From Acidobacterium sp. S8 (GTDB lineage: Bacteria; Acidobacteriota; Terriglobia; Terriglobales; Acidobacteriaceae), in the NCBI RefSeq assembly GCF_009765985.1, contig NZ_LMUM01000026.1:83491-147490 (forward strand): DNA of 64,000 nucleotides. Direction: 5' to 3'. Under the pieces are notes generated by a model. It was not told where the DNA came from and did not search any database. It worked only from the letters and a program-made list of their open reading frames with translations. A program made the translations under genes and the position numbers. Positions 21,544 to 36,430 of the stretch are shown piece after piece. Each line of letters opens with the position of its first letter. Within the stretch, counting starts at the first letter, position 1.

Positions 21544-21572
21544 TTGAGGGCACTGCGCTGTCATTCTAATCT
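21544..21572 (+). promoter_or_regulatory. Candidate promoter of the polysaccharide operon
   Basis: TTGAGG at 21544-21549 and TAATCT at 21567-21572 are separated by 17 bases, about 100 bases before the glycosyltransferase start at 21676. The region between is AT-rich, unlike the genes upstream. This is a motif-level suggestion only. Confidence 0.3.
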
Positions 21573-21675
21573 GCATTACTTAAGTTTCAGATTCTATAAG
21601 TTCTTCCTATACCAAGCATATGTCTATTTGTATTCTCTGAATAACTTTTCAACGTATCTAGCTAAGGGAGCCAGC

Positions 21676-22647
21676 GTGTCCGAAGGGGCGGCGGTGAGCG
21701 TGGTGATACCTACGTGCGGGCGGTCACGGCAGGTTGCGGCTGCTGTCAAAAGTGCGCTTGCCCAGAGTTATGCGCCATTCGAAGTAATCGTAGTTATCGA
21801 TGGATTCGATCCCGAGACCATAAGCGTGTTGGGCACGTTTGGCGACCAGCGATTGCGGCTGATCACACTTGAGAAAAATGTCGGAGGCGCCGAGGCTCGC
21901 AACATCGGTATTCGCTCGGCCTGCGGTGAGTGGATTGCCTTCTTGGATGACGACGATACCTGGATGCCCGAAAAGCTGAAACGTCAAATGGAAGTAGCGG
22001 CGTCAGTATCCGCACTATTCCCGATTGTGAGCTCGAAGCTGTTGGATCTTCGAGCTGGTATGACCCGGATGCTTCCGTACAGGCTTTATGAGAAGGGAGA
22101 AGACGTGAGTGAATACCTGCTTTGCCGTCGAGGGCTGGGCTACGGCGGTGGCATGCTGCAAACGTCAACACTGCTGACGAAACGCGATCTTCTGCTGGAT
22201 CTTCCTTTTCTGAAGGGGCTGAAACTGCATCAGGACTGGGACTGGCTGATAAAGGCGGCTCGTCGGCCTGACGTGGAGATTGCGATGGCTCCGGAAGCGC
22301 TCACCGTGATGTATGTCGATGAACAGAGTGGAAGCGTTAGTCAATCGACCGACTGGAAAGCATCGCTCGAATGGGCGCAGGAAGCGCGTTCCGTGATGAG
22401 CCGACGCGCATATTCATTTTTTATTGCGACTGAGTGTGTATCGCGTGCACGAAAGAACGGCGCCGGGGTCAAGGTTGTCTGTGAGCTTTTGCGAACTTAT
22501 TTCCAGGATGGACATCCGTCCGCTCGCTCGCTCGTTCTCTTCCTGGGATTCTTACTATTTTCGAGGAGACACCGAAACATACGGAAAAGACGGTCGAGGA
22601 AGTCGTTCCTGACCGGAAAAACGGAGATGATGACAGGCTATGACTAA
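21676..22647 (+). CDS. Family 2 glycosyltransferase
   Basis: 323 residues from GTG 21676, which follows AAGGGAG. It is a GT-A inverting glycosyltransferase: AVSVVIPTCGRSRQVAAAV starts the fold, NVGGAEARNIGI follows, and WIAFLDDDDTWMPEKL carries the DxD-like metal site. The C-terminus is basic, as in membrane-associated transferases. The frame is open to 21544 but those residues overlap the candidate promoter. Its stop overlaps the SIS-domain gene by eight bases (ATGACTAA), so it is the first gene of a coupled series. Donor and acceptor sugars cannot be read. Confidence 0.82.
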   Translation: MSEGAAVSVVIPTCGRSRQVAAAVKSALAQSYAPFEVIVVIDGFDPETISVLGTFGDQRLRLITLEKNVGGAEARNIGIRSACGEWIAFLDDDDTWMPEKLKRQMEVAASVSALFPIVSSKLLDLRAGMTRMLPYRLYEKGEDVSEYLLCRRGLGYGGGMLQTSTLLTKRDLLLDLPFLKGLKLHQDWDWLIKAARRPDVEIAMAPEALTVMYVDEQSGSVSQSTDWKASLEWAQEARSVMSRRAYSFFIATECVSRARKNGAGVKVVCELLRTYFQDGHPSARSLVLFLGFLLFSRRHRNIRKRRSRKSFLTGKTEMMTGYD

Positions 22648-23248
22648 CTATATTGGAGCGTTTCTCGAAGCTACTCAAGAGATTGCTGTCCGGCTTGACC
22701 AACATGTTATCGATCGAATGATAGAGCTGTTGGTGGATGTGCGCTCGAATCACGGTCGCGTGTTTTTTCTGGGGGTAGGCGGGGGCGCGGCACATGCCAG
22801 TCATGCGGTGAATGACTTCCGCAAGATCGCCGGGATAGAGTGCTATGCGCCCACCGACAACGTCGCGGAGTTAACAGCGCGTACCAACGACGATGGATGG
22901 GAAAGCTGTTATGCAAACTGGTTGCGTGTCAGCCGGCTGCATGAACGCGACGCAGTGTTTGTGTTTTCTGTGGGCGGAGGCAGCGTGATCCCTCCTCTCA
23001 GTACAAATATCATTCGCAGCCTTGAACTGGCGCACCGTGTTGGAGCGCGAATTCTGGGCGTCGTCGGAAGGGATGGGGGATGTACAGCCAAAATTGCGGA
23101 TGCCTGTGTGGTGATACCGACAGTGCTAGACGATTCCATTACACCGCTGGTAGAAGCTTTTCAGGCAGTGATATGGCACCTGGTTGTTTCTCATCCGCGG
23201 CTGAAAGTAAATGAAATGAAATGGGAGTCGACAACGGTCCTGGTATGA
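22640..23248 (+). CDS. gmhA: SIS-domain sedoheptulose-7-phosphate isomerase (GmhA-like)
   Basis: 202 residues. GRVFFLGVGGGAAHASHAVNDF, then the alternate loop VFSVGGGSVIPPLSTNII, form the two phosphosugar-binding parts of a SIS domain, and the length is that of GmhA. It would convert sedoheptulose 7-phosphate to D-glycero-D-manno-heptose 7-phosphate. The presence of a GmhB-like phosphatase, an HddA-like kinase and an HddC-like nucleotidyltransferase in the same locus argues strongly for this role rather than another sugar-phosphate isomerase. The 3' end overlaps gmhB by four bases (ATGA). Confidence 0.82.
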   Translation: MTNYIGAFLEATQEIAVRLDQHVIDRMIELLVDVRSNHGRVFFLGVGGGAAHASHAVNDFRKIAGIECYAPTDNVAELTARTNDDGWESCYANWLRVSRLHERDAVFVFSVGGGSVIPPLSTNIIRSLELAHRVGARILGVVGRDGGCTAKIADACVVIPTVLDDSITPLVEAFQAVIWHLVVSHPRLKVNEMKWESTTVLV

Positions 23249-23829
23249 GGCGAGCGGTCTTTCTCGATCGGGATGGAGTGCTAAATCGGAACGTGTGGAA
23301 TTCTGCGACGGAGGCCTATGAGTCTCCACTTACGCCTGAGCAGTTCGAACTGCTGCCGAAGGTGGTTCCGGCGCTGAAGTTATTGCGTGATGCCGGCTAC
23401 CTTTTATTCCTGGTTTCGAATCAGCCAAACCATGCCAAGGGCAAGGCCGATATGGAAGTGTTGGAGGAGATTCACAGGAAGTTTGAGATGCTACTTACAG
23501 CTGAAGGCATCGTTTTTAGCGATTATTATTACTGCTTTCATCATCCAAATTTTACGGGGGCATGCCGCTGTCGAAAGCCTTCTCCATATTTTTTATTTGA
23601 AGCGCGGGACCGCTTCGATGTTGATCTCGCGCAATCCTGGATGATTGGAGACCGCGTAAGCGACATAGCATGCGGGCGCGCCGCAGGCACCCGCACGATC
23701 GGAATAAGCCCGATGACGCAGTCGCAGACCGGAGCTGATTGCATTGCCGATGATTTGTGGAGAGCAGCTCAGATCATTACCTGTTATGAAAGAGCCAGCA
23801 TCCCGGATGTCTTGGCCGCTTCGACGTGA
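23245..23829 (+). CDS. gmhB: HAD-family D-glycero-D-manno-heptose 1,7-bisphosphate phosphatase (GmhB-like)
   Basis: 194 residues. FLDRDGVLN gives the nucleophile Asp8 and acid-base Asp10. The structural-zinc loop of histidinol-phosphatase/GmhB phosphatases is complete: CFHHPNFTGACRCRKP holds one histidine and three cysteines. GDRVSDIACGRAAG is motif IV. It removes the 7-phosphate (or 1-phosphate, depending on anomer) of heptose bisphosphate. ATG 23245 is used because it overlaps the GmhA stop; ATG 23221 would extend upstream with no family similarity. The last 46 bases overlap the transaldolase gene on the other strand. Confidence 0.85.
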   Translation: MRRAVFLDRDGVLNRNVWNSATEAYESPLTPEQFELLPKVVPALKLLRDAGYLLFLVSNQPNHAKGKADMEVLEEIHRKFEMLLTAEGIVFSDYYYCFHHPNFTGACRCRKPSPYFLFEARDRFDVDLAQSWMIGDRVSDIACGRAAGTRTIGISPMTQSQTGADCIADDLWRAAQIITCYERASIPDVLAAST

Positions 23830-24536
23830 TAGCCAGCGGCGCATGTGTCACGGTAAAACATCTGCACGGTTTCGAGCGAATAGGCGTCCAAATCTTTGCC
23901 GATCAGGTTTAGTTTGTCGAGTATTTCAGGGACGAGTGTGATGATGTGGCAGCCGGCATCTTCAGCTTGAAAGATGTTGAGAATCTCTCTTGGGCTTGCC
24001 CAGAGGAGCTCTACGTGAGGCAGCGGCTCCAGAAGTCGAACAGCCTGACGCATTAGCGGAACTGGATCAATACCTGTATCCGCTATGCGGCCGGCGAAGA
24101 TAGAAATGATAGCCGGCTTTGCCGGATCGAGGCAGTCGGCGACACGCTCAACCTGCTCCAGTGTGAACAACGCGGTGACATTAAGAGGCACGCCTGCATT
24201 CGAAAGACGACGCAGGCTGGAGCCCGTAAATGCGCCCCACGTATTTGTAACTGGAACCTTTACATTTATGTTAGGCGCCCAGGAAGCGATCGTAAGCGCG
24301 TCCTGCTCCATGGCCTCCGGATCGTCGGCGAGCACCTCAAATGAAATGGGTCTGTCAGAGATTACCTTTGTAAGCTGTCGCGCGAAGATCTCGTAGTTGA
24401 CTACATGTGATTTCCGCATGAGCGTGGGGTTTGTTGTAAATCCTTTGATACGCGGATCGGCGGCCCATGTTAGCAGGCTGCCGAGGTTGGCACCATCACA
24501 GAAGAGTTTGGTACGAAAATGATTTATGTCGAGCAT
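23784..24536 (-). CDS. Transaldolase within the polysaccharide locus
   Basis: 250 residues. KGFTTNPTL, the Schiff-base lysine Lys93 in NVKVPVTN, and PLNVTALFTLEQV are the transaldolase (TalC-like) core, and ISIFAGRIADTG is the C-terminal loop. The enzyme interconverts fructose 6-phosphate plus erythrose 4-phosphate with sedoheptulose 7-phosphate plus glyceraldehyde 3-phosphate. Sedoheptulose 7-phosphate is the substrate of the adjacent GmhA-like isomerase, so a biosynthetic supply role is likely. It is convergent with gmhB, overlapping by 46 bases, and begins the downstream part of a minus-strand trio with two glycosyltransferases. Alternative: fructose-6-phosphate aldolase, which is in the same family. 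Confidence 0.82.
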   Translation of the reverse strand: MLDINHFRTKLFCDGANLGSLLTWAADPRIKGFTTNPTLMRKSHVVNYEIFARQLTKVISDRPISFEVLADDPEAMEQDALTIASWAPNINVKVPVTNTWGAFTGSSLRRLSNAGVPLNVTALFTLEQVERVADCLDPAKPAIISIFAGRIADTGIDPVPLMRQAVRLLEPLPHVELLWASPREILNIFQAEDAGCHIITLVPEILDKLNLIGKDLDAYSLETVQMFYRDTCAAGYHVEAAKTSGMLALS

Positions 24537-24557
24537 AGTTTCCGTTTGATCCGGGAG

Positions 24558-25472
24558 TTATGGTTGTGGATCGGTGCTCCATGATCCGCATGCGGTCTGG
24601 AGAGAAATCCCGGCTTCCTGAGATTGATTTATGGGCGCTTGTTCATTCTGGCGCTCAAACAGAAAGAGCTGCCGGAGAACAAGGTAAATGAAGTGAGTAT
24701 TGCCGATCAGGTATCTGCGCCAAAGACGCCGAGGCTCTTGAACAAGACGATAAAGCCACTCCATGCCTAACTTCTGCGTCCACAGCGGGGCGCGACGGCG
24801 CAGTCCTGCGAGTGTGTCGAATGCCGCTCCGACAGACATAGCGGCACCTACTGGAAGAGAAGGACAATTCTGAAGCATCCACATTTCCTGCCTGGGGGCG
24901 CCAAGGGCCACAAACAGGAGGTCGGGGGATGACTTTGTGATGAGCTGATGAATATGAGCCGACTCGATAGGATTATGTTCAAATCCACGGGAAGGGCAAT
25001 AGACGCCCGCTATGGATAGAGCGGGATATCGAGCCTGAAGCCGGAGTGCTGCTTCGACGGCTGCACCCGGCAATCCCCCGAGAAGGAAAATGCTCAATTG
25101 ATGATCTGCTGCTTCGCGGCAGAGGCGTTCCATCAGCTCGCCTCCCGGTACGCGTTCCGGAATCTTCTGGCCCAACAATCTGGAAGCAAGCACTATCGAA
25201 ATTCCATCAGGAACGTTCAGGGATGAAGCGCGCAGCGCCTGATAGAAACGAATGTCGTTTTGTGCGAGCGTTATCAACTGAGCGTTTGGTCCCATGATAA
25301 GAATGGGCGCTTTGCCGAAACTATTCCGTAATCCATCCAGCACCGCCGTCGCCGCTTCATCCATCGTCAGACGATCGATGGGAACATCGGCGATATTACA
25401 TCGTCGCGTAGATGAAAGCGGCATCCGTTTAGACTGCAGAAGCCCTTGCTCAAGAAACGCGCTGAGGCTCAT
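24558..25472 (-). CDS. WecG/TagA/CpsF-family glycosyltransferase
   Basis: 304 residues from ATG 25472, which sits in the ATGA overlap with the upstream glycosyltransferase stop. VLDGLRNSFGKAPILIMGPNAQL, NVPDGISIVLASRLLGQ, SIFLLGGLPGAAVEAA and LLFVALGAPRQEMWM match the WecG/TagA/CpsF family, which transfers a ManNAc-type or related sugar from a nucleotide donor to a lipid-linked sugar. Members act at the cytoplasmic membrane, here with a basic C-terminal WRRYLIGN segment. The ORF can start at 25496 but the overlap favours the shorter form. It is 21 bases from the transaldolase. Confidence 0.85.
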   Translation of the reverse strand: MSLSAFLEQGLLQSKRMPLSSTRRCNIADVPIDRLTMDEAATAVLDGLRNSFGKAPILIMGPNAQLITLAQNDIRFYQALRASSLNVPDGISIVLASRLLGQKIPERVPGGELMERLCREAADHQLSIFLLGGLPGAAVEAALRLQARYPALSIAGVYCPSRGFEHNPIESAHIHQLITKSSPDLLFVALGAPRQEMWMLQNCPSLPVGAAMSVGAAFDTLAGLRRRAPLWTQKLGMEWLYRLVQEPRRLWRRYLIGNTHFIYLVLRQLFLFERQNEQAPINQSQEAGISLQTACGSWSTDPQP

Positions 25473-26449
25473 GGCCAGAAGACTTCCTTTCTGCAATGAA
25501 ACAAGGTTGGGGAAACACCATTCGCAATCATCCCCCCAGGGAAATATTCGTCCCGCAATCTTTGAAGAAGGTAGGCGGGCGAGGCGAGAGCTGTGCGAAG
25601 CAAGGACGCAAATGCACTGCCATAATGTTTTGCGGCTAGATGCATATTCAGGCGCCGAAGGTGCTGCTTAGCAGCAAGGCGTGTCGCGGGGATCGCGTCT
25701 TCGAGAAGCGGTGCTATGTCAGCCAGAGGTAACGGATCGCGGCTGTCGAGATGCGAAAGCAGCAGGTACTGAATGTACAACCCATGCAACTCTTGAAGAT
25801 AGGCATTCCTGGAACTGATGCTCGAGGCATTCTGACGAAAGCCAATCAGGACCTCCGGGAGAAGATGGACATCGTAATGCAGGGCCATGCGCCACCACAG
25901 ATCGGCATCTTCGCTGTGGGTGAGGTCTCGATATCCGCCTATGGCAAGAGTTTTTTCAACATTGAGAGCTACGGATGGGTGGCAGATGGAAAGCAAATAA
26001 CCCGACTGCACAATCTGCCGCAGCTGCTGCGGCGAGCCGCGGGTGCAACGGAAAAGACCGAGGCTGCGGCTGGCAGGATAGTATTCCGCAAGCGAATAGA
26101 ACATGCCGGCATTCTCATGCCAAGCCATCTGCTCCTGTAGGCGTTCGATGCGGCTTGGGTAAGATACATCGTCAGCGTCTTGGCGTACGAGCCATTTTGT
26201 CTCTGTCTCGTGCAGCATGCGGTTCAAGGTTACTGTAAGCCCGGAATGCGGCTGAGACAGAATACGCAGACGCGGATCGTGAAGCGTTTCGAGATAACGA
26301 AGGCTAGGCTCATCTGCGCCATCGACGATCACGAGAATACGGAAATTCCGGACGGTTTGCCGAAGCAAACTTTCGATTGCTTCAGGAAGATAGGGCATTG
26401 CGTTATAGACAGGCAGACCGATCGTGATCGAGCTTCGGCGCAAGGCCAC
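25469..26449 (-). CDS. Family 2 glycosyltransferase
   Basis: 326 residues. SITIGLPVYNAMPYLPEAIESL starts a GT-A fold, followed by KWLVRQDADDVSYPSRIERL (DxD-like) and SEDADLWWRMAL (acceptor-side ED motif). It is the first gene of the leftward trio (GT2, WecG-like, transaldolase), facing the epimerase gene across a 334-base AT-rich gap. Such enzymes add sugars to a lipid-linked repeat unit on the cytoplasmic face. No membrane helix is obvious. Donor specificity cannot be inferred. Confidence 0.82.
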   Translation of the reverse strand: MALRRSSITIGLPVYNAMPYLPEAIESLLRQTVRNFRILVIVDGADEPSLRYLETLHDPRLRILSQPHSGLTVTLNRMLHETETKWLVRQDADDVSYPSRIERLQEQMAWHENAGMFYSLAEYYPASRSLGLFRCTRGSPQQLRQIVQSGYLLSICHPSVALNVEKTLAIGGYRDLTHSEDADLWWRMALHYDVHLLPEVLIGFRQNASSISSRNAYLQELHGLYIQYLLLSHLDSRDPLPLADIAPLLEDAIPATRLAAKQHLRRLNMHLAAKHYGSAFASLLRTALASPAYLLQRLRDEYFPGGMIANGVSPTLFHCRKEVFWP

Positions 26450-26783
26450 TCCTCAACACCCTGTTGACATGGGACATCCCGTGGCAGCTTCGCAACGAAG
26501 AACCCAAGGACAAGCAAGGCAGTAATTACAAAATGTTATTAACTAAGAGTATGGATAGTTATGTCTAGAAACACGGTAGTTAGTCAAGAAGTTTTAGTTT
26601 CACCAGAAAACTTAGGTAATGTTTTCATTTGACGATGGTTCTGTTAGCTTCCTACCTACAAATCACTTATTTTTAGATTGAATCGGGTCTCGGACGTTTC
26701 ACGCTGCGACAGCGGCGTTGAAGGCTCGGAGGTTCGGATATACATGGACGGACAGAGCTAGCTGCAGTGGTTTGTGATTGCCT
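26450..26783. other. AT-rich divergent intergenic region inside the polysaccharide locus
   Basis: This gap separates divergent glycosyltransferase and epimerase genes and should hold both promoters. It is clearly richer in A and T than the flanking genes, most strongly at about 26520-26690. TTGACT-like and TTGACG-like -35 candidates occur on each strand (near 26585 and 26629), but no convincing -10 partner is positioned well. I see no conserved gene. A short H-NS- or regulator-binding role is possible but unsupported. Confidence 0.4.
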
Positions 26784-27779
26784 ATGTTGAATGCACGATT
26801 GGCTAACGATCGCAGTAGACGCTACTTCATCGCGGGTGGTGCCGGATTCATCGGAAGCCATCTGGTCGATGCTTTGCTTGCCGAGGTTTCGACTGAAGAA
26901 GTCACGATTTACGACAATTTGTCTTCCGGACGCGAGTGGCATTACGAGCAGCATGGGTCAGACGCCAGGCTTCGTGTTCTGCGCGCCGATGTGACGGATC
27001 TCCAGGTTCTTACACGCGCCATGGTAGGACATGATGTCGTGGTACATCTTGCGTCGAATCCTGATATTGCCCGCAGCGCCGTCGAACCCGAAATTGATTT
27101 TCACCAAGGTACATGCCTGACAAACAATATCGTGGAAGCGATGCGCCGATCGGGTGTCAACCGGTTGCTGTATGCCTCAGGAAGCGGCGTTTATGGCGAC
27201 CTTGGCGAGGAAGTGGCATATGAAGATCATGGTCCGCTGATTCCGATATCGACTTATGGCGCAAGTAAGCTCGCGGGAGAAGCGCTGATTGCCAGCTATT
27301 GCGCGATGTTTGATCTGACTGCTTGTGCCTTTCGATTCGCGAACGTTGTGGGTGCACGACAAACACACGGAGTGGGCTTTGACTTCGTTAGGCGGTTAAC
27401 GACCAATCCACAGGTGCTGAAGATCTTAGGCGATGGCACGCAGAGTAAATCGTATATTCACGTTTCTGACGTAATGCGTGCTCTTCTGCATGTTGAGCGG
27501 GACAGCAGCGAGCCGTTTGCCGTTTTCAATGTATCGCCTGAGGATGCGATTACGGTCACGGAAATTGCTGAGTTGGCGGTCGAGTGTCTTCAACTGGATT
27601 CGATGCCCCAGCTCGTTTATTCGGGAGGTGATCGCGGCTGGAAGGGCGATGTTCCGGTCGTGCGTCTCAACTCTGACAGGCTAAGAAGCTTGGGCTGGCG
27701 ATCCCGTTATACAAGTCGCGAGGCGATGCGTCTGGCGTTGATGAGCATGATCGCTGATGAGAGAGTGTCCTATGCCTAG
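26784..27779 (+). CDS. NAD-dependent sugar-nucleotide epimerase/dehydratase
   Basis: 331 residues of extended SDR. GGAGFIGSH (18-26) binds NAD, and the catalytic Tyr and Lys are in STYGASKLAGE. DNLSSG and AFRFANVVGARQ, then GDGTQSKSYIHVSDV, are typical of UDP-glucose/GDP-sugar epimerases and dehydratases. The next two genes make GDP-heptose, so a GDP-heptose-modifying enzyme is likely, but a housekeeping-type UDP-sugar epimerase is equally compatible. ATG 26784 is used; TTG 26778 is two codons upstream. The stop overlaps the nucleotidyltransferase start by eight bases (ATGCCTAG). Confidence 0.8.
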   Translation: MLNARLANDRSRRYFIAGGAGFIGSHLVDALLAEVSTEEVTIYDNLSSGREWHYEQHGSDARLRVLRADVTDLQVLTRAMVGHDVVVHLASNPDIARSAVEPEIDFHQGTCLTNNIVEAMRRSGVNRLLYASGSGVYGDLGEEVAYEDHGPLIPISTYGASKLAGEALIASYCAMFDLTACAFRFANVVGARQTHGVGFDFVRRLTTNPQVLKILGDGTQSKSYIHVSDVMRALLHVERDSSEPFAVFNVSPEDAITVTEIAELAVECLQLDSMPQLVYSGGDRGWKGDVPVVRLNSDRLRSLGWRSRYTSREAMRLALMSMIADERVSYA

Positions 27780-28527
27780 CGCGCTTCCACCTCTTGCATT
27801 ATTAGCCGGCGGATTGGCTACGCGCATGCATCCGTTCACTGAAAGCGTGCCCAAGTCATTATTGCCGATCAGTGGAGAGCCATTCCTTGCCCATCAGTTG
27901 CGATTGCTTGTCAGTCAGGGATTTAACGAGGTGGTGCTGTGCTGCGGACATTTAGGCAAGCAGATCGAGCGATTCGCCGGGGATGGCTCGCGATTCGGTT
28001 GCCATATTCGATATTCCTACGATGGAGATGCGCTCCTGGGCACGGGTGGTGCGTTGCGACGCGCGTTGCCACTGCTGGGCGAACGTTTCTTTGTCATGTA
28101 TGGAGACAGTTATCTCTCGCTTGATCCAGTGCGCGTGTGGGAGGCATTTGTCGCTTCCGGGCAGGCGGCCTTAATGACTGTGTGGCGCAACGAGGGTCTC
28201 TTGGAGAGAAGCAATGTCGAGGTGTGGGATAGAAAGATTATCCGTTATGACAAGTGGAACCATGACGATAGTTTGCGATACATCGATTACGGATTGAGTG
28301 TGCTTTCTGCTGATGTGTTGGAGGCGTGGCCTGAAACGGCGCCATTCGATCTAGCAGATACGATGGCACGATTGGCTACGGAGGGCAGGCTGGCTGCCTG
28401 TGAAGTTTCGCAACGATTTTATGAGATAGGTTCGCCGGAAGGATTTCGCGCGACCGAAAAGATGCTGGCTGGATTACGCATGTCCCGAGAGAGCGAACTG
28501 GTGGCTTCTATTGGTGGCCAGGCATGA
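27772..28527 (+). CDS. hddC: Sugar-1-phosphate nucleotidyltransferase, HddC-like
   Basis: 251 residues. LLAGGLATRMHPFTESVPKS is the nucleotide-binding signature with GxxTR and the catalytic Lys, and MYGDSYLSLD holds the metal-binding Asp. The length is that of compact enzymes such as HddC, which makes GDP-D-glycero-alpha-D-manno-heptose, rather than longer GlmU or RfbA types. The kinase next door is HddA-like, supporting a GDP-heptose role. ATG 27772 overlaps the epimerase stop; ATG 27757 is the longer alternative. The end overlaps the kinase start by four bases. Nucleotide specificity (GTP) is inferred from neighbours. Confidence 0.75.
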   Translation: MPSALPPLALLAGGLATRMHPFTESVPKSLLPISGEPFLAHQLRLLVSQGFNEVVLCCGHLGKQIERFAGDGSRFGCHIRYSYDGDALLGTGGALRRALPLLGERFFVMYGDSYLSLDPVRVWEAFVASGQAALMTVWRNEGLLERSNVEVWDRKIIRYDKWNHDDSLRYIDYGLSVLSADVLEAWPETAPFDLADTMARLATEGRLAACEVSQRFYEIGSPEGFRATEKMLAGLRMSRESELVASIGGQA

Positions 28528-29510
28528 TCATTACCCGGACGCCATTGCGCATTTCGATCGGAGGCGGAGGTACCGATCTGCCGTCCTACTACAACGAATT
28601 CGGTGGCTTTGTTATATCGGCGGCAATTAATAAGTATGTCTACATTTCGATTAACAGGAGCTTTTTGCCCGGATATTTCCTGAAATATTCAGACGCGGAG
28701 CATGCGCTGAATTATGAGGAGATACGGCATCCTTTGCTGCGCGAAGCGTTGAAGATGCATGAGGCTCCTTCACCGCTGGAGATCGTCAGCATTGCTGACG
28801 TGCCTGCAGGTACAGGTTTAGGCTCGTCAGGAGCATTTCTTGTTGGTCTGACTCACGCTTTACACGCATATGCACGTAAACGCGTGACCGCGGAAACGCT
28901 GGCTCAGGAGGCGGTGGAGATCGAGATGAATCGCTTGCATGAGCCTGTAGGCAAGCAGGATCAATATATCGCAGCATATGGCGGGCTGCTTTGCCAAGAG
29001 TATGAGAAAGACGGCTCAGTGAGAGTTTCGGCTTTGAGAATCGATGAGACAGCTCTTACGGAATTGCGCGATTCGTTAATGCTCTTTTTTGTGGGGCAGA
29101 CGCGCAACGCCTCCACTTTGCTGATGGATCAGCAGAAGCGTTCTGAACAGCAAGATAAAGCCATGCTGGACGGACTTCACTTTGTAAAACAACTGGGACG
29201 AGAAATACAAAGTGTTTTGGAATCAGGAGCGGTCCACGAATTCGGCAGGCTGATGCATGAACATTGGATACGCAAACGCCGCAGGACTGTAGGAATGAGC
29301 AATGACGAGATTGATCACCTGTACGAACTCGCGCGCGTACGCGGCGGCTCGACCGGAGGAAAGCTGGTAGGCGCGGGAGGAAGCGGCTTTCTGCTGTTGC
29401 AGACACAAGATAGAAAGCGCCTGCGGACGGCGATGACGGATTCCGGCGTCTGCGAGATGGAATTTGACTTTGATTTTGACGGCTCGTCTGTAATGATGCG
29501 CAGCGCCTGA
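28524..29510 (+). CDS. hddA: GHMP kinase, D-glycero-alpha-D-manno-heptose 7-phosphate kinase-like
   Basis: 328 residues. TRTPLRISIGGGGTDLPSYY is the N-terminal GHMP segment, PAGTGLGSSGAFLVGL the phosphate-binding loop, and KLVGAGGSGFLLL the third motif. HddA phosphorylates heptose 7-phosphate at the anomeric position to the alpha-1,7-bisphosphate, which GmhB and HddC then convert to GDP-heptose. All four activities are present within 7 kb. The start ATGA overlaps the nucleotidyltransferase stop. Other GHMP kinases such as fucokinase are longer or differ, but a fucose-like sugar cannot be excluded. Confidence 0.8.
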   Translation: MIITRTPLRISIGGGGTDLPSYYNEFGGFVISAAINKYVYISINRSFLPGYFLKYSDAEHALNYEEIRHPLLREALKMHEAPSPLEIVSIADVPAGTGLGSSGAFLVGLTHALHAYARKRVTAETLAQEAVEIEMNRLHEPVGKQDQYIAAYGGLLCQEYEKDGSVRVSALRIDETALTELRDSLMLFFVGQTRNASTLLMDQQKRSEQQDKAMLDGLHFVKQLGREIQSVLESGAVHEFGRLMHEHWIRKRRRTVGMSNDEIDHLYELARVRGGSTGGKLVGAGGSGFLLLQTQDRKRLRTAMTDSGVCEMEFDFDFDGSSVMMRSA

Positions 29511-29518
29511 GAGGAAGT

Positions 29519-31819
29519 ATGGCGACAGTATTCCCAGAATTGCAGAGGGCCCCGGATCTTCGAACTATCTTCGAAGATAAATGGACGTTAGGCGCTTTAA
29601 CTGGGATTATACGAAAGCGGCGCGCGAGCTTTTTGCTGGTTGTCGTGTCATTTATAGCAGCAGCCGGGCTGTATTGCCTGCTGGCGACACCACGGTACGA
29701 AGCGATCGGACAAATTCAAATTCAAAGAGACAATGCCGTTGCCTTCGGACTGGACAACAGTGTAATGGGGAGTGAGGCCGGCACCGCTTCCGATGCTTTG
29801 GATTACAACCTTAGCCTGGAAACCGAAGTAAATATTCTTCGGTCGGATTCACTTGCCCTGCAGGTCATTCGGGAACTCAATCTGGAGACGAGCCGGGATT
29901 TCTATCCTCGCGAGCGGTCAGGGCAGAATCAACCGCCACGGTGGATGACGTTCTGGAAGAAGCCGGTCGAGCCAATGAATGTGCCGCTCGATGGCGCTCC
30001 GAACCGACGGTATGTCGTTCTCAAGATTTTTGCCAGCCATTTGAAGGTCGAGCCGGTGACAGGCACTCGCCTGATCAGCATCAGCTATGCGAATCCGGAT
30101 CCTACGGTCGCGGCAGATGTGGTGAACCATCTCATCAACGCCTTGATCGAGTATGCTTTCCAGTCCCGCTTTCGTGCGATGGCCGAGGCTTCAAACTGGC
30201 TGACGACGCAACTGGATGGCTTGCGGAGGCAGACGGAAGAATCGCAGACGCGAGCCATTGCTCTGCAAAGGGCTACTGGCATGTTCGGCGAGGACGAATC
30301 GCATAACGTGATGCTCTCTCGTCTTGAGAGCTTGAACGATGCCTTATCAGCGACTGAATCGAATCGGATTTTAAAACAGGCGGTTTACCGCATCGCTGAA
30401 AGCGGCGATCCTGAGCTGATCTCAGGGCTAAGCGGAAACGCAACACTCGGCGGACCAGTGCCGATCGCGAACTCGCTGGGGCTGATTCAGAATCTGAGAG
30501 TACAACAGGCATCCATGCGCGCCGAACTTGATCAGGATCGGGTGCGTTATGGCGCGGCGTATCCGCGTATCGCAGAACTGCAGGCTGAACTCGACGGCAT
30601 CGAGAAATCCATTCATGACGAAGTGGGTCGCATTCGAGAACGCGCACATACGGATTATGAGATTGCGGCACGCACTGAGACGTCAGCAAAAGCAGCTTTC
30701 GAAAATCAGAGAAAGCTGGTGAATGGCCTGAATGATAAGACGACAGCCTACCGTTTAGCGAAGCAGGAGGCGGATGGCAGCCGTGAGGTCTATGAAGGTT
30801 TGGTCGCGAAGTTGAAGCAGGCAGGCGTGCTCGAGGGTTTGCGATCGACGAATATTTCGATTGTGAATCCTGCGCGTGTTCCACCGCCAAACCATCCGAA
30901 AAGCCCGAATACGATGCTGTATTTTGCGGCCGCGATCGGTGCGGGATTCATTTCTGGTGCTGGTGCGGCTTTGTTTCGCGAACTGACCGATACGAAAATC
31001 CGAACCTGCGAAGAACTGGAAAAGCTGACAGGTGTGCCGCTGCTTGGGTTGATTCCTGCATTTAACAGGAGGAACGGCGGCGCTAGCGAGAGAAGGGTGC
31101 TGTCGAAAGCGGCTAAGCTTCCGCCTGCCGGACAGATTGAGAATCCTGATGCGGCACGCGGCCTTTTTGCCGAAGCATTGCGTTCCTTACGCACAGCGCT
31201 TGTGCTTCCACACAGTAGCGATGCTCCGAAGGTTTTCTTGATCACGAGCGCGAAGGCTGGTGAGGGTAAGAGCACGGTGTCATTGAGCCTGGCTACTGTT
31301 CTTGCACAACAGGGAGCGCGGGTACTGCTGGTAGATGCGGACTTACGCCGGCCGATTCTGCATGAACGCATTGGACTGCACGCCTCAGGCGGACTGAGTG
31401 CAGCTCTCACAGATGGCCTTGCTATGCCGGAAGTGGTGGAAGGCATTCCGAACCTTCATGCGATTTGCGGTGGAGCGGTGCCTGATTATCCGTCTGAACT
31501 GCTCGGCTCCAAGAGAATGCGCACACTAGTGGGTGAATGGAAAGATGACTATGATTTCATTCTCCTAGATGGACCGCCGGTACTGCCAGTTACAGATGCC
31601 ATTGTGCTGGAACAGATAAGCGATGCGGTACTGCTGGTTGCACGCCACGGAGTGACCGAAAAAAAAGCAATGCAGCGTAGCTATCGTGCGATTGCTCGGC
31701 AGTTGCCGCAGAGAACAGTGCTGGGAGCCGTGTTGAATGCCGTGCCGGTCCGCTCTTCTTCTTTCTATGAATATTACGGCTACCGGAGCCGGTCGTTAGG
31801 GGGAAGGGTGGCAAATTGA
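29519..31819 (+). CDS. Polysaccharide co-polymerase / bacterial tyrosine autokinase (Wzc-like)
   Basis: 766 residues. A Wzz-type membrane helix lies at about 35-55, a long periplasmic helical part with coiled-coil character follows, and a Pro-rich segment (PARVPPPNHPKSPN) precedes the second membrane helix near 470. The cytoplasmic BY-kinase has Walker A SAKAGEGKST near 577, Walker A' LLVDADLRRP near 603 and Walker B FILLDGPP near 681. The C-terminus is tyrosine-rich (FYEYYGYRSRS), the usual autophosphorylation cluster. It controls chain length and export with Wza. No partner phosphatase is in the window. The stop overlaps the next start by four bases. Confidence 0.88.
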   Translation: MATVFPELQRAPDLRTIFEDKWTLGALTGIIRKRRASFLLVVVSFIAAAGLYCLLATPRYEAIGQIQIQRDNAVAFGLDNSVMGSEAGTASDALDYNLSLETEVNILRSDSLALQVIRELNLETSRDFYPRERSGQNQPPRWMTFWKKPVEPMNVPLDGAPNRRYVVLKIFASHLKVEPVTGTRLISISYANPDPTVAADVVNHLINALIEYAFQSRFRAMAEASNWLTTQLDGLRRQTEESQTRAIALQRATGMFGEDESHNVMLSRLESLNDALSATESNRILKQAVYRIAESGDPELISGLSGNATLGGPVPIANSLGLIQNLRVQQASMRAELDQDRVRYGAAYPRIAELQAELDGIEKSIHDEVGRIRERAHTDYEIAARTETSAKAAFENQRKLVNGLNDKTTAYRLAKQEADGSREVYEGLVAKLKQAGVLEGLRSTNISIVNPARVPPPNHPKSPNTMLYFAAAIGAGFISGAGAALFRELTDTKIRTCEELEKLTGVPLLGLIPAFNRRNGGASERRVLSKAAKLPPAGQIENPDAARGLFAEALRSLRTALVLPHSSDAPKVFLITSAKAGEGKSTVSLSLATVLAQQGARVLLVDADLRRPILHERIGLHASGGLSAALTDGLAMPEVVEGIPNLHAICGGAVPDYPSELLGSKRMRTLVGEWKDDYDFILLDGPPVLPVTDAIVLEQISDAVLLVARHGVTEKKAMQRSYRAIARQLPQRTVLGAVLNAVPVRSSSFYEYYGYRSRSLGGRVAN

Positions 31820-32742
31820 AGTTCACAGTTGGCGTTGCTGTTCTTTTACTGCTCGGCGCGTTCAGTAGCAGAGTCGATGGTCAGGCTGTTCCCGTGGTTT
31901 ACCAATCGAACGGTGCTACCGCGCAGGAAAGCTTGAAGGTTGGCCGTGGCGATCTTCTGCATATCACGATCTTCCGAGAGCCTGATATGGAACAGAAGGT
32001 ACGGGTAAAGGATTCCGGCGAAATTGACCTAGATCTTGCTGGAACATTGAAGGTTGCAGGGCAGACCCCATCGGAAGCGGCGCGGATGATTGCACAACAG
32101 TATGTCAATGGCCAATTTCTTAATCATCCGCAGGTGTCAGTCCTGATTGAAGAATATGCGACGCAGAATGTGTCTGTTCTTGGCGAGGTGAAGAAGCCGG
32201 GCGCATTTCCACTTACCACGCCTCGCGATCTGTTGGATGTTCTTGCACTGGCAGGTGGGCTGACGGAGATTGCAGATCGACATATTACGGTGCAGCGGGT
32301 GGATAAAGCCGGTGTAGAAAAAGCATTTTTGCCCAACAATCCATCGACGGATTTAAGGCAGGCCGGGGTCATAGTGTATCCGGGCGATACGATTCTGGTG
32401 CCCAAAGCAGGTCTGGTGTATGTGATGGGAGACGTGTCGCGTCCTGGCGGCTACGTAATGCAGGACGACGCGAAGATAACTATACTGCAGGCGGTAGCCA
32501 TGGCTGCCGGAGCAAACAAGACCGCGAAGGAGGATGATACACGGCTCATCCGGAAAGCGAATGGCAGCTATCAAGACAGTATCGTGCCTTTGAAAGATAT
32601 CGAGGAAGGTAAACAGCCGGATAAGGAGTTGCAGGCTGATGACGTTCTTTACATTCCTTTCAGCATGACGAAACACGTGATCCTGGCTACCGCCGGAATC
32701 GTGTCATCGACAACCGCGGCGGCTATTTATGCCACCCGATAA
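31816..32742 (+). CDS. Polysaccharide export protein with SLBB domains (Wza-like)
   Basis: 308 residues starting at TTG 31816, the only sensible start because it shares TTGA with the kinase stop. A signal peptide covers about 1-22 (no lipobox cysteine), then the Poly_export domain (VGRGDLLHITIFREPDMEQKVRV) and SLBB repeats (NVSVLGEVKKPGAFPL and YVMGDVSRPGGYVM). It should form the outer-membrane export channel; the final helix HVILATAGIVSSTTAAA may anchor the protein. The lack of a lipobox separates it from classical Wza. It overlaps the polymerase gene by 14 bases. Confidence 0.85.
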   Translation: MKFTVGVAVLLLLGAFSSRVDGQAVPVVYQSNGATAQESLKVGRGDLLHITIFREPDMEQKVRVKDSGEIDLDLAGTLKVAGQTPSEAARMIAQQYVNGQFLNHPQVSVLIEEYATQNVSVLGEVKKPGAFPLTTPRDLLDVLALAGGLTEIADRHITVQRVDKAGVEKAFLPNNPSTDLRQAGVIVYPGDTILVPKAGLVYVMGDVSRPGGYVMQDDAKITILQAVAMAAGANKTAKEDDTRLIRKANGSYQDSIVPLKDIEEGKQPDKELQADDVLYIPFSMTKHVILATAGIVSSTTAAAIYATR

Positions 32743-34072
32743 AAGATACTCGTTGCCACTGACAAAAACGTTCTCGGCGATAGAGGTGGAACAAATTCTG
32801 TGTGTTTGTGTCCTGGCCTTCTTCGCTATGCAGGGAGCCATTCCGGGTATCGCTCCAAATGAAGCGAATGAAATGACGCACATGGCGGCTACGAACCTGA
32901 TGAAGGTCGCCGGCATTGGTTCGCAACTGCTTATCAATGCGACCATCGCAATGCTCGTTCTCGGATATATTGAGCGGTTACGTCACTTCGCATTCGCTCT
33001 GCAATGGACTGCCGCGATTGCCGCGCTCAGCATATGTTCGACCGTCTGGTCCCAGGATGCTACGACGACTGCGAGGCGTTCGATTCCTTTTGCATTGGCA
33101 GCCGCGTTTGGATTGTATTTTGCGTCGAGATTTCAAATACGGGAGCAGCTATCAATCCTTACATCCACTATGGTGCTCTTGGCTTTAGCAAGCGCGGCGC
33201 TTGCTTTCTTCGCCCCGTCCATCGGGCTCGAGGCGTCTCAAGGGCATCACGGCGACTGGCAAGGAGTATTCACTCAGAAGAATGCCTGTGGACGTGCAAT
33301 GGTTTTCGCCGGAATATCGCTTCTTTCTGCCGGACGAATGAACCCTGCGCGTTATGCGGCGCTTTTACTCTTTACGGTTGTGCTGGTGATGAGCGGCTCG
33401 CGCGGAGCATGGCTGATTGGGGCGATTCTGATATTTTGCTTTGGACTGCTTTGTCTTTTAGATCGCTTCGATCCAGGTAGTCGGGTTCTTTTGCTGTACG
33501 GTTTAGCCTTTGCGATGATTGCGGGACTTGCTGCAGCGTGGTTTTGTTTGCCGATGGTTATGGGACTGTTGCATCGAGATGTCACGCTCACGGGACGCAC
33601 CGCGATATGGCACCAGGTCTGGATTGCAATTCGAAAACGACCGTTGCTGGGTTACGGGTTTTCCGCGTTCTGGCAAGGTATGCGGGGCGAATCGAGCAAT
33701 GTCACGATCGCTCTGCGATTTGTGGTCTTCCACGCACATAACGGATTGCTTGAAATGTGGCTTGAGCTGGGTGCGACGGGACTTCTTTTATTCGTTCTGA
33801 GCTATTTGCGGGCGTGGCGCAAGTTGTGGGTGATTCTCCGTTCTGGAGGAATAAGAAGAACCTTCTGGATGATCTTATTTCTTCTATTTATCGCACTTTA
33901 CAACTTCGATGAAAATACGCTGCTTACATTTAATGGGATCTTCTGGGTGTTATATGTAGCAGCGGTTGCGAATATAGAGATATTTTCGCTTGAACATAGG
34001 CAGTTGTCCTCACTAAACAATCGGGCGGTATCGATAGATCCTTTCCACCGGCCCAGTATGGTGAGGATATAG
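32729..34072 (+). CDS. O-antigen ligase / ExoQ-type polysaccharide polymerase
   Basis: 447 residues with about 10-12 membrane helices. GHHGDWQGVFTQKNACGRAM is a hallmark of the Wzy/WaaL/ExoQ family, and TGRTAIWHQVWIAIRKRPLLGYGFSAFW is the second conserved periplasmic loop. In this locus (Wzc-like, Wza-like, flippase) it most likely polymerises flipped repeat units in the periplasm; it could be a ligase. The start lies inside the export gene. The stop TAG is immediately followed by the acyltransferase ATG. Expect an inner-membrane protein; no catalytic residue can be confirmed by eye. Confidence 0.82.
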   Translation: MPPDKRYSLPLTKTFSAIEVEQILCVCVLAFFAMQGAIPGIAPNEANEMTHMAATNLMKVAGIGSQLLINATIAMLVLGYIERLRHFAFALQWTAAIAALSICSTVWSQDATTTARRSIPFALAAAFGLYFASRFQIREQLSILTSTMVLLALASAALAFFAPSIGLEASQGHHGDWQGVFTQKNACGRAMVFAGISLLSAGRMNPARYAALLLFTVVLVMSGSRGAWLIGAILIFCFGLLCLLDRFDPGSRVLLLYGLAFAMIAGLAAAWFCLPMVMGLLHRDVTLTGRTAIWHQVWIAIRKRPLLGYGFSAFWQGMRGESSNVTIALRFVVFHAHNGLLEMWLELGATGLLLFVLSYLRAWRKLWVILRSGGIRRTFWMILFLLFIALYNFDENTLLTFNGIFWVLYVAAVANIEIFSLEHRQLSSLNNRAVSIDPFHRPSMVRI

Positions 34073-35284
34073 ATGGCGACCATTCAGCTGGTTGGTGCTG
34101 ACGCTGCTGAACCTCATTCAAAGGTAGCTCGGAGATTTTATCGGCCAGAGCTCGATGCTTTGCGCTTTTTCGCATTTCTGGCGGTCTATGTCTGTCATAG
34201 CATTCCCAACTCTCTTGCGGCAGCTGGCGCTTCGGGAAGGAGTGGAGCAGGTGTTGCCTTCGTAGCAGCCATTAAAGATACGGGTAATTTTGGAGTTTGC
34301 CTGTTTTTCCTGCTGAGTGCATTTCTTATTACAGAACTGCTGCGGCGCGAGGATGAAGCCTACGGTCCTATTGATATCGGCTCGTTTTACTTGAGACGCA
34401 TCTTACGCATTTGGCCACTTTATTTCGGTATTACAATCGCTTATTGGCTGGGAGGATACTTCTTTCCTGCATTGCGTCTCGAGCCGGGGCGCGTCATCTC
34501 GTATTTTCTACTGGCAGGGAATTGGTATATCGCGCTGCATCCATGGATTCAGACACCGTTACGTTCGCTATGGAGTATTTCTGTCGAGGAGCAGTTTTAT
34601 CTGGCTTGGCCGCTGCTGGCCCACTATGGAGGCATGCGCGCACTTGCTAAGGCGTCACTTGTTCTAGTGCCGCTCTCGCTGCTGACAATATATGTGGTTT
34701 CGTCAGACAAGAGCTATGCGCACAACACGGTTTGGGTAAATAGCTTTACACAATTTCAATTTTTTGCGTGGGGAGCATTGCTTGCTTTGGCGTTGGACGG
34801 GAAAGCATTGCGAATCGATAAGGTGCTGCGCGGCACTATGTGGTCGTTGGGAATCTCTCTTTGGATGTTCGCCGCGCACGCGATCAAGATCAAGCGAGCC
34901 GGGGTAGATGTGCTGCCGTCTCAATATTGTTTTGGATATCTGTTGGTCGCGGCGGGTTCTATGCTGTTGCTGCTCGCGGTGCTGGGGATCTCAAATGGAA
35001 GAGTGCCGCGATGGGCAGTATATCTGGGAAAGATATCGTTTGGGCTTTATGTGTTTCACGAGACCGCATTTCTTATAGCCGACGAAGTGCAAAAGCATAC
35101 TGCAGGGTACATGCCATCCATGGGATTATGGCCGGGTCAAGACAAACCAGCATTACTGGTGCTGAATAAGATCTTCTCGTTGGGTATCACTGTATTGCTG
35201 GCCGTGTCTTCTTACCATTTCTGGGAAATCCCATTCCTTCGACTCAAGGAGCGTTTTACCTGGGTTCGCTCACGGGAGGTCTAG
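34073..35284 (+). CDS. Acyltransferase family 3 protein (OafA-like)
   Basis: 403 residues, about ten membrane helices. RRFYRPELDALRFFAFLAVYVCHSIPNSL is the acyltransferase-3 opening; the His-containing segment is at about residue 40. YLRRILRIWPLY and WSISVEEQFYLAWPL follow and are typical. It should transfer acetyl or another acyl group onto a sugar of the repeat unit at the inner membrane. It starts directly after the polymerase stop with no gap. No extra periplasmic SGNH domain is fused, so the acceptor partner is not obvious. The acyl donor is not determined. Confidence 0.85.
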   Translation: MATIQLVGADAAEPHSKVARRFYRPELDALRFFAFLAVYVCHSIPNSLAAAGASGRSGAGVAFVAAIKDTGNFGVCLFFLLSAFLITELLRREDEAYGPIDIGSFYLRRILRIWPLYFGITIAYWLGGYFFPALRLEPGRVISYFLLAGNWYIALHPWIQTPLRSLWSISVEEQFYLAWPLLAHYGGMRALAKASLVLVPLSLLTIYVVSSDKSYAHNTVWVNSFTQFQFFAWGALLALALDGKALRIDKVLRGTMWSLGISLWMFAAHAIKIKRAGVDVLPSQYCFGYLLVAAGSMLLLLAVLGISNGRVPRWAVYLGKISFGLYVFHETAFLIADEVQKHTAGYMPSMGLWPGQDKPALLVLNKIFSLGITVLLAVSSYHFWEIPFLRLKERFTWVRSREV

Positions 35285-35290
35285 AAGAGG

Positions 35291-36430
35291 GTGAGAACAG
35301 TGTTGATCTATCGCAACGAATTGTTGCCGGCATCAGAGACATTTATTCGTGCGCAAGCTGGCGTACTCCAAAGATTTACGCCTGTTTTTGCCGGATTGAG
35401 ACGGATTGACAGCGGCTTGGATATGCGAGGCGCCAGCGTTCTGACGTTGTCGAATTCCGAATCCTTGCGGAATAAGTTCAAACGTAGAGTATTTCTTCGT
35501 ACTGGCCTCGCCAGGGCGTTCTCAGAAGGCATCGCAGCGCGAAACCCGGAACTGGTACATGCGCACTTTGCTGTGGATGCTGCCGCAGTACTGCCGATTG
35601 CGAAAGATTTGTCTGTACCTTTGATCGTTACATTGCATGGCTACGATGTGACGTGTGCCGCGAACGAGTGGAAAAGCTGGCCAACGGTCCGTTGCTATAT
35701 GCGGCGCATGGCAGCTCTCAAGAGGTACGCCCATTTATTTCTCTGTGTATCCAAGCATGTGAAGCAGCAAGCATTGGCTCTAGGATTTCCCGAGGACAAG
35801 TTATATGTACATCACATAGGCGTCGACCTGAAAGAACGACAACGCCGGCCAAGCTCGCGCGAAAACAATACCGTGCTTTTTGTGGGCAGGCTGGTTGAGA
35901 AGAAGGGGGCGAGCTACCTCATCCGCGCAATGTCCCTTGTAAATCATGTAAATCCACAGGCAAGACTGGTGATGATTGGCGACGGCCCTCTGCGCAACTC
36001 TTTAGAACTAGAGGCAGCGCGCTGCGGTGTAGATGCTCTTTTTCTTGGTGCTCAAGAGCATGAAGTTGTCAGGCAATGGATGAGCGAGGCGCGCGTGCTT
36101 GCAGCGCCCAGTGTACGTGCTGTGAACGGCGATTCAGAGGGACTACCTACCGTTCTTTGCGAAGCCCAGTCGGCAGGACTGCCAGTGGTTGCATTTGCCA
36201 CGGAAGGAGTTACAGAGGCGTTTCCTCCGGAGCGCCGGAAGTCTTTGCCCCGGGAAAGAGACATAGCAACACTTGCCGAACAGATTCTTTTCCTTCTGAA
36301 CAACGACGACGCATGGTGCAAGGCGAGCAAGACGGGGAGAGAATGGGTCGAGTCAATGTTTGATCTTTTCTCCCAGACAAAGCTATTGGAAGACAAATAC
36401 GAGGAACTGATTGAGAGTCATCGTGGCTGA
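35291..36430 (+). CDS. Family 4 glycosyltransferase
   Basis: 379 residues, GT-B fold. The acceptor-domain segment LVHAHFAVDAAAVLP, linker VTLHGYDVT, and donor-domain parts VLFVGRLVEKKGASYLIRAM, LVMIGDGPLRNSLE and DSEGLPTVLCEAQSAGLPVVA (E-x7-E) are diagnostic of retaining GT4. The GTG at 35291 is the ORF start; GTG 35300 is better spaced from GAGGGTGA and equally likely. The end overlaps the flippase start. It probably adds a hexose to the lipid-linked repeat; donor unknown. Confidence 0.85.
   Translation: MRTVLIYRNELLPASETFIRAQAGVLQRFTPVFAGLRRIDSGLDMRGASVLTLSNSESLRNKFKRRVFLRTGLARAFSEGIAARNPELVHAHFAVDAAAVLPIAKDLSVPLIVTLHGYDVTCAANEWKSWPTVRCYMRRMAALKRYAHLFLCVSKHVKQQALALGFPEDKLYVHHIGVDLKERQRRPSSRENNTVLFVGRLVEKKGASYLIRAMSLVNHVNPQARLVMIGDGPLRNSLELEAARCGVDALFLGAQEHEVVRQWMSEARVLAAPSVRAVNGDSEGLPTVLCEAQSAGLPVVAFATEGVTEAFPPERRKSLPRERDIATLAEQILFLLNNDDAWCKASKTGREWVESMFDLFSQTKLLEDKYEELIESHRG

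Follow-up and report, generated by a model that had tools for sequence, protein, structure and literature searches.

A transaldolase paired with a distinct GmhA-like isomerase in a polysaccharide locus of Acidobacterium sp. S8, and its possible role in GDP-octose synthesis

Within a polysaccharide locus of Acidobacterium sp. S8, a gene for a transaldolase (tal) lies among genes for GmhA-, GmhB-, HddC- and HddA-like proteins. The stretch that we analysed (the window: 64,000 nucleotides of contig NZ_LMUM01000026.1, positions 83,491 to 147,490) had been the subject of an original prediction, which proposed that the transaldolase gives the gene set its own supply route to guanosine diphosphate (GDP)-heptose. 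The genes it named are all present, and the transaldolase passes the NCBIfam model TIGR02134. Comparison with other genomes shows this enzyme to be strictly paired with a single clade of SIS-domain isomerases, here called SIS-t, in loci separate from those of classical GmhA. The part of the proposal that makes the transaldolase dedicated to its gene set has held up, through a conserved neighbourhood, intact residues and the presence of a separate TalAB transaldolase; the part that makes the set a usual GDP-heptose set has not, and on the protein scores such a set is not supported as such. The product of the cassette is probably an unusual eight-carbon or a non-standard seven-carbon sugar rather than an ordinary heptose. 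The explanation that we cautiously favour is a self-contained cassette in which the transaldolase would supply a ketose phosphate of the cassette's own (octulose 8-phosphate being the most probable), to be converted into GDP-octose for a surface polysaccharide.

Conserved pairing of transaldolase and isomerase

The comparison of homologous loci that had been suggested with the prediction shows the neighbourhood of tal to be conserved both in the order of the source genome and in a second phylum. Of the order's 298 genomes, 90 match TIGR02134 at E<=0.001 and 37 do so over the cut-off; five weaker or fragmentary genes (in G084, G027, G255, G254 and G285) also belong, giving 42 tal genomes, and the matches in the remaining 48 are all under 95 bits. 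A whole-genome profile search (E<=1e-40) finds SIS-t in 46 of the 298, namely in all 42 tal genomes and in four others; in G067 a divergent isomerase stands alone, and in G291 the stretch runs into a contig end. The two genes lie on one contig in 40 of the 42, 39 to 6155 bp apart (within 1.5 kb in 32), and on different contigs in the other two. In the phylum of the Opitutus genome, SIS-t occurs in 23 of 240 genomes, and in each of them a strong transaldolase match lies at a distance of 44 to 2048 bp; this phylum has three more transaldolase matches, all weaker (114-130 bits). With 42 of 42 and 23 of 23 genomes in two groups, counts that come from genomes sharing ancestry and do not represent independent events, the pairing is confirmed as more than chance; the Fisher values calculated from these counts are accordingly not to be read as probabilities for independent events.

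The loci around these genes have a consistent composition. We examined 45 tal loci: 40 belong to the order (those of 39 other genomes and of the window), and the remaining five, the only relatives given by a single-sequence contig scan, to a named collection. An isomerase is present in 44, an HddA-like kinase in 37 and an HddC-like nucleotidyltransferase in 38, and the isomerase of the exception (L049) sits on another contig. A separate HAD phosphatase gene was counted in 25 of the 45, an approximate figure, the HAD profile having been built partly from fused SIS-HAD proteins. In 13 of the 40 order loci the isomerase frame is 387-407 aa long (e.g., L067 8492-9673 and L039 8814-9992), and Pfam assigns an N-terminal SIS domain and a C-terminal HAD domain to each of the four such frames tested. 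For the second phylum a clean HAD profile was used: in its 22 fetched loci (the 23rd being the Opitutus locus L004), HddA is found in 22, HddC in 21, HAD in 17, and Gfo/Idh/MocA-like, SDR, epimerase-like and UDPGDH-like genes in 18, 15, 13 and 10, respectively. The pair is also carried by plasmid 3 of Lawsonia intracellularis, where SIS, HAD and tal stand in a row with the kinase and nucleotidyltransferase genes 4.7 kb on, together with UDPGDH-, SDR- and Gfo/Idh/MocA-like genes. In Rhizobium jaguaris pRCCGE525c the order is hddA-hddC-SIS-HAD-tal, and neighbouring genes abut or overlap by 1-4 bp; Rhizobium sp. CB3060 has the same order, and both cassettes, whose stretches are unannotated in the collection, are preceded by epimerase-like, UDPGDH-like, SDR-like and Gfo-like genes. 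The tal and SIS-t genes travel together across several phyla.

Control loci lack this association. No cassette genes were found near lower-scoring TAL/FSA enzymes, either in 19 loci of the order or in three of the second phylum; of these 22 control enzymes, ten were scanned against NCBIfam, and eight pass TIGR00875 (TalC/FSA) while two (L136 and L137) pass no cut-off. Nor does membership in TIGR02134 alone predict a cassette, as the fetched flanks of four stand-alone transaldolases (all on plasmid records, from Staphylococcus aureus, Treponema saccharophilum, Ligilactobacillus acidipiscis and Streptomyces sp. 3211) contain no cassette gene, although all four pass the model at 294.9-443.3 bits and are 41-50% identical to the window protein. 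On the Streptomyces plasmid (L141 18691-21442), the transaldolase gene lies beside genes for a D-arabinono-1,4-lactone oxidase and a hexitol phosphatase. These results bear on the idea that a pentose-phosphate gene merely happens to sit in the locus. The opposite strand of the window's tal relative to the SIS and HAD genes and the two clusters without tal (discussed below) would suit such hitchhiking; the co-occurrence in both groups, the several gene orders, the tightly packed operons, the 22 control loci without such neighbours and the separate TalAB in the genome make it very improbable.

A second set of controls concerns the kinase. No transaldolase occurs in 38 HddA loci of other kinds, of which 30 were chosen by HddA score alone (20 higher-scoring and 10 of a 200-227-bit class) and eight (L109-L116) because no transaldolase matched there; several of the stretches are cut by contig ends. 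A canonical GmhA is present in 18 of them and a third SIS type in seven, and the rest have no SIS match in the stretch fetched; L109 holds a cassette-type kinase at a contig end. In three genomes (G081, G182 and G198), a single tal locus coexists with a single canonical one. The tal cassette is separate from the classical GmhA loci. The loci L100-L108 form a group of their own, with a third HddA type (293-334 bits to the cassette profile), the third SIS type in six of the nine, and no transaldolase or canonical GmhA in the stretch fetched.

The enzymes of the cassette

The window transaldolase scores 297.9 bits against a TIGR02134 cut-off of 281.95 and matches Pfam TAL_FSA at 128.7 bits; to the TalC/fructose-6-phosphate aldolase model TIGR00875 it reaches 74.3 bits, under the cut-off of 245.95. 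Ten positions that we take to be catalytic or phosphate-binding (D14, N36, E67, K93, T121, S145, F147, R150, S181 and R183) are all present, and in 41 relatives (39 other loci of the order, of which L058 in G285 is split into two frames, and Opitutus L004) they agree at every aligned letter, except for one X at E67 and one at K93. Position 147 is Phe in all 39 relatives having a letter there; Phe presumably marks transaldolases and Tyr fructose-6-phosphate aldolases. TalC-type control enzymes likewise carry Phe at this position, so that F147 rules out the aldolase type only. Judged by these residues, it is an intact enzyme of the transferase kind. It comes in addition to a TalAB transaldolase that scores over its own cut-off and lies on another contig of the same genome (5.4 Mb, listed completeness 99.99%).

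The isomerase departs from GmhA in several respects. It reaches 42.1 bits to the GmhA model TIGR00441, whose cut-off is 209.45, and the best match to that model in the whole source genome has E = 2.6e-10, as against 1e-50 to 1e-65 for the canonical GmhA of relatives. Its predicted structure (mean predicted local distance difference test score, pLDDT, 82.2) has the GmhA fold and matches structures of GmhA and DiaA with Z of about 20-21 and 18-24% identity. A tree of 70 isomerases separates those of tal loci (45 in all: 39 from the order, five from the named collection and the window's own) from the 25 others with support of 100/100, under a long-branch warning. The 't' and 'c' isomerase profiles were built from loci with and without tal, and the genome-wide search and the tree are the better evidence. 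With 18 canonical GmhA of the same order as reference and residues mapped by alignment to Burkholderia pseudomallei (Bp) GmhA, the active-site Glu (Bp E68) is Asp and the Gln (Bp Q175) is Glu in 44 of 44 SIS-t, and the Asp (Bp D61) is replaced in all 44 (by Asn in 29, His in 14 and Tyr in one). In place of the STSG loop stands SVGG, with a Gly and a six-residue insert after it. SIS-t shares with the GmhA of Escherichia coli and B. pseudomallei the fold, H64 and a His aligned with Bp H183, which we take to be the catalytic residue and which is retained in 44 of 44. The second phylum agrees, as 22 of 22 of its SIS-t have this Asp, Glu and His; the D61 position there is Asn, Ser or Thr. A loss of the catalytic His in SIS-t was considered and rejected, as the alignments show it to be kept. 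Moreover, an alignment of 15 members (12 from the order, plus those of Lawsonia, Rhizobium and one Cloacimonadota genome) has 60 invariant columns, so that SIS-t looks like an enzyme under selection rather than a decaying GmhA. With its own clade and altered active site, we conclude from these sequences that SIS-t is not GmhA, and the rebuilt pocket would fit a different substrate.

The other three proteins also score far below the cut-offs for the heptose enzymes. The kinase reaches 155.1 bits against the HddA cut-off of 600 (NF049969), a strict threshold given that the best HddA match in the 298 genomes of the order scores only 432.1; it is the sole HddA match in its genome. For the nucleotidyltransferase the score is 68.7 bits against the HddC cut-off of 300. 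The phosphatase has 89 against 149.6 for GmhB_yaeD and 117.7 against 178 bits for PRK08942, and lies over the cut-offs of TIGR01656 and TIGR01662.

The candidate product and its alternatives

The window resembles the classical GDP-heptose pathway in its enzyme superfamilies and kinds of step, including an isomerase with the GmhA fold (Z about 21), and differs from it in adding a transaldolase, in drawing its isomerase from a separate clade and in having all four proteins below the NCBI cut-offs. To our knowledge, no pathway other than the lincosamide route, whose product is an octose, has been described as combining a transaldolase with such a set. Among the literature matches listed (titles and abstract openings), none links a transaldolase to GDP-heptose, O-antigen or capsule gene clusters, to phosphoheptose isomerase or to Lawsonia. 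The original prediction knew of no described example of a dedicated transaldolase; the passages on LmbR and on CcbR of celesticetin in the lincosamide literature supply a parallel, in which the transaldolase is clustered with an isomerase, kinase, phosphatase and guanylyltransferase (PMC4351081, PMC5854111). As listed there, LmbR (transaldolase), LmbN (C8 isomerase), LmbK (C8 phosphatase) and LmbO (C8 guanylyltransferase) are all confirmed, and the LmbP kinase, LmbM epimerase, LmbL dehydrogenase and LmbZ oxidoreductase are given as predicted (PMC4351081); according to a review, LmbM, LmbL, CcbZ and CcbS were later shown to convert GDP-octose onward (PMC12945683). The donor of LmbR is described as fructose 6-phosphate or sedoheptulose 7-phosphate and its acceptor as ribose 5-phosphate, the product being an octulose (PMC5854111). 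At the level of families, the window likewise has transaldolase, isomerase, kinase, phosphatase, nucleotidyltransferase and epimerase in one cluster. Some cassettes elsewhere add the UDPGDH-, SDR- and Gfo/Idh/MocA-like genes; in the lists for the lincosamide clusters, a C8 dehydrogenase and a C8 oxidoreductase appear. Unlike the lincosamide clusters, the cassette of the window sits in a polysaccharide locus of another bacterial group.

From these likenesses we infer the order of the reactions, the use of GDP, the C8 chain length and the destination in a polysaccharide. With fructose 6-phosphate (or sedoheptulose 7-phosphate) as the source of three carbons and an aldose phosphate as acceptor, ribose 5-phosphate being the likeliest, the transaldolase would produce octulose 8-phosphate, which SIS-t would isomerize to octose 8-phosphate. 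The GHMP kinase would then phosphorylate C1, after which the HAD phosphatase would take off the terminal phosphate and the nucleotidyltransferase would form the GDP-sugar. A glycosyltransferase would use this product, perhaps after the epimerase has inverted one centre. Sedoheptulose 7-phosphate is a common intermediate of the pentose-phosphate pathway, whereas octulose 8-phosphate is no standard intermediate. A heptose cassette, its ketose phosphate being made by ordinary metabolism, therefore needs no transaldolase of its own, and the classical loci examined lack one; a cassette using octulose 8-phosphate would need one.

The main rival keeps the seven-carbon chain: the transaldolase would draw on fructose 6-phosphate and erythrose 4-phosphate for a dedicated supply of sedoheptulose 7-phosphate, SIS-t would form a heptose 7-phosphate (perhaps the gluco or another epimer, not manno), and the product would be GDP-heptose. 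The make-up of the gene set (GmhA-, HddA-, GmhB- and HddC-like) and the GmhA fold of SIS-t are what it would predict. TIGR02134 enzymes also exist as stand-alone genes, presumably with a role in the pentose-phosphate pathway, no residue of the transaldolase marks a different acceptor, and some C7-cyclitol clusters also seem to carry a transaldolase. Still, this rival fits the facts less well, and we consider it unlikely. The substrate is a common one, and the 38 other HddA loci, 18 of them with canonical GmhA, do without tal, which speaks against the simple form first proposed, a supply of sedoheptulose 7-phosphate for GmhA; the isomerase, moreover, is not GmhA, and SIS-t falls outside the GmhA clade. 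In Campylobacter jejuni, a four-enzyme heptose route starts from sedoheptulose 7-phosphate, and the word 'transaldolase' is absent from the main text of the study (PMC10680097). A different acceptor, such as arabinose 5-phosphate, would lead instead to another C8 or a C9 sugar. Transaldolases are described as accepting various substrates (PMC5854111), and the cassettes of other groups carry different extra oxidoreductase genes; however, there is no sequence evidence for a particular other acceptor, and the characterised parallel takes ribose 5-phosphate, which makes this variant rather improbable.

Several observations weigh against the GDP-octose explanation. G203 and G217 retain SIS-t, HAD, HddC and HddA genes without a transaldolase and the tal of G285 is split into two frames, which indicates that tal can be lost. 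Every residue found in >90% of 62 cassette transaldolases also occurs in at least one of the four stand-alone TIGR02134 members, so that the transaldolase itself gives no sign of a new acceptor. A heptulose leading to a different product configuration might fit the altered pocket of SIS-t just as well. The likeness to LmbR and LmbN is one of families and published gene lists, and an octose in a bacterial polysaccharide, exopolysaccharide and lipopolysaccharide included, was not found among the literature matches listed (titles and abstract openings).

Gene arrangement and implications

The open reading frames of the window place the six nucleotide-sugar cassette genes in a polysaccharide locus, with glycosyltransferase genes interspersed and export-type genes downstream (Table 1). 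The tal gene is convergent with the HAD gene, the two overlapping by 46 bp, and is in line with a WecG-type gene, 21 bp upstream of it, and a family 2 glycosyltransferase gene; the epimerase gene precedes the HddC-like gene. Scans of the window with Rfam (at gathering scores) and for tRNA genes found nothing.

Table 1. Genes of the cassette and its surroundings, with positions in the window
Gene or product	Position	Strand	Remarks
Family 2 glycosyltransferase	21544-22647	+	Pfam PF00535; 3' end overlaps SIS gene; relative in 17/49 tal loci
SIS-domain sugar-phosphate isomerase (SIS-t), GmhA-like fold, putative LmbN-like role	22640-23248	+	
HAD-IIIA phosphatase, GmhB-like, putative LmbK-like role	23245-23829	+	ATG start at 23245
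Transaldolase (tal), TIGR02134 family, putative LmbR-like role	23784-24536	-	
WecG/TagA/CpsF-type glycosyltransferase	24558-25496	-	PF03808 204.5 bits; relative in 19/45 tal loci
Family 2 glycosyltransferase	25469-26449	-	PF00535; same strand as tal; relative in 16/49 tal loci
NAD-dependent epimerase, GalE-like, putative LmbM-like role	26778-27779	+	PF01370; best PDB sequence match GalE-1 3ehe, 263.7 bits
Sugar-1-phosphate nucleotidyltransferase, MurU/HddC-like, putative LmbO-like role	27757-28527	+	
GHMP sugar kinase, HddA-like, putative LmbP-like role	28524-29510	+	NF049969 (score in text); PDB 4usm, 3k85
Export/assembly genes: Wzc-, Wza-, polymerase-, acyltransferase-, GT4-, flippase-like	29519-37694	+	labels read from translations alone

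The two clusters without tal have features of their own. In G217 (L146 3191-7924) a cluster like that of the window has, between its HAD and WecG genes and thus at the position expected for tal, a gene for a 968-aa protein kinase with PD40 repeats. In G203 (L145 6102-12739) a stand-alone AMP-binding/PP-binding/thioesterase module and a DUF6875 gene lie directly upstream of SIS-t, HAD, HddC and HddA, with no transaldolase within the 20 kb; the arrangement recalls the lincosamide pathway, in which an octose is linked to an activated amino acid.

If the explanation that we favour is correct, the GmhA-like and heptose-kinase-like proteins of these genomes belong to a different sugar pathway, for which a transaldolase gene beside an isomerase gene would be a simple genomic marker. 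The octose, or the unusual heptose, could then be sought directly in named organisms such as Rhizobium jaguaris, and a possible origin for the octose genes of the lincosamide clusters would be indicated. More tentatively, and with less confidence than we place in the favoured explanation, the presence of such candidate GDP-octose cassettes in several phyla might mean that eight-carbon aldoses are widespread and unrecognised in surface polysaccharides, and that the lincosamide sugar was derived from this polysaccharide pathway.

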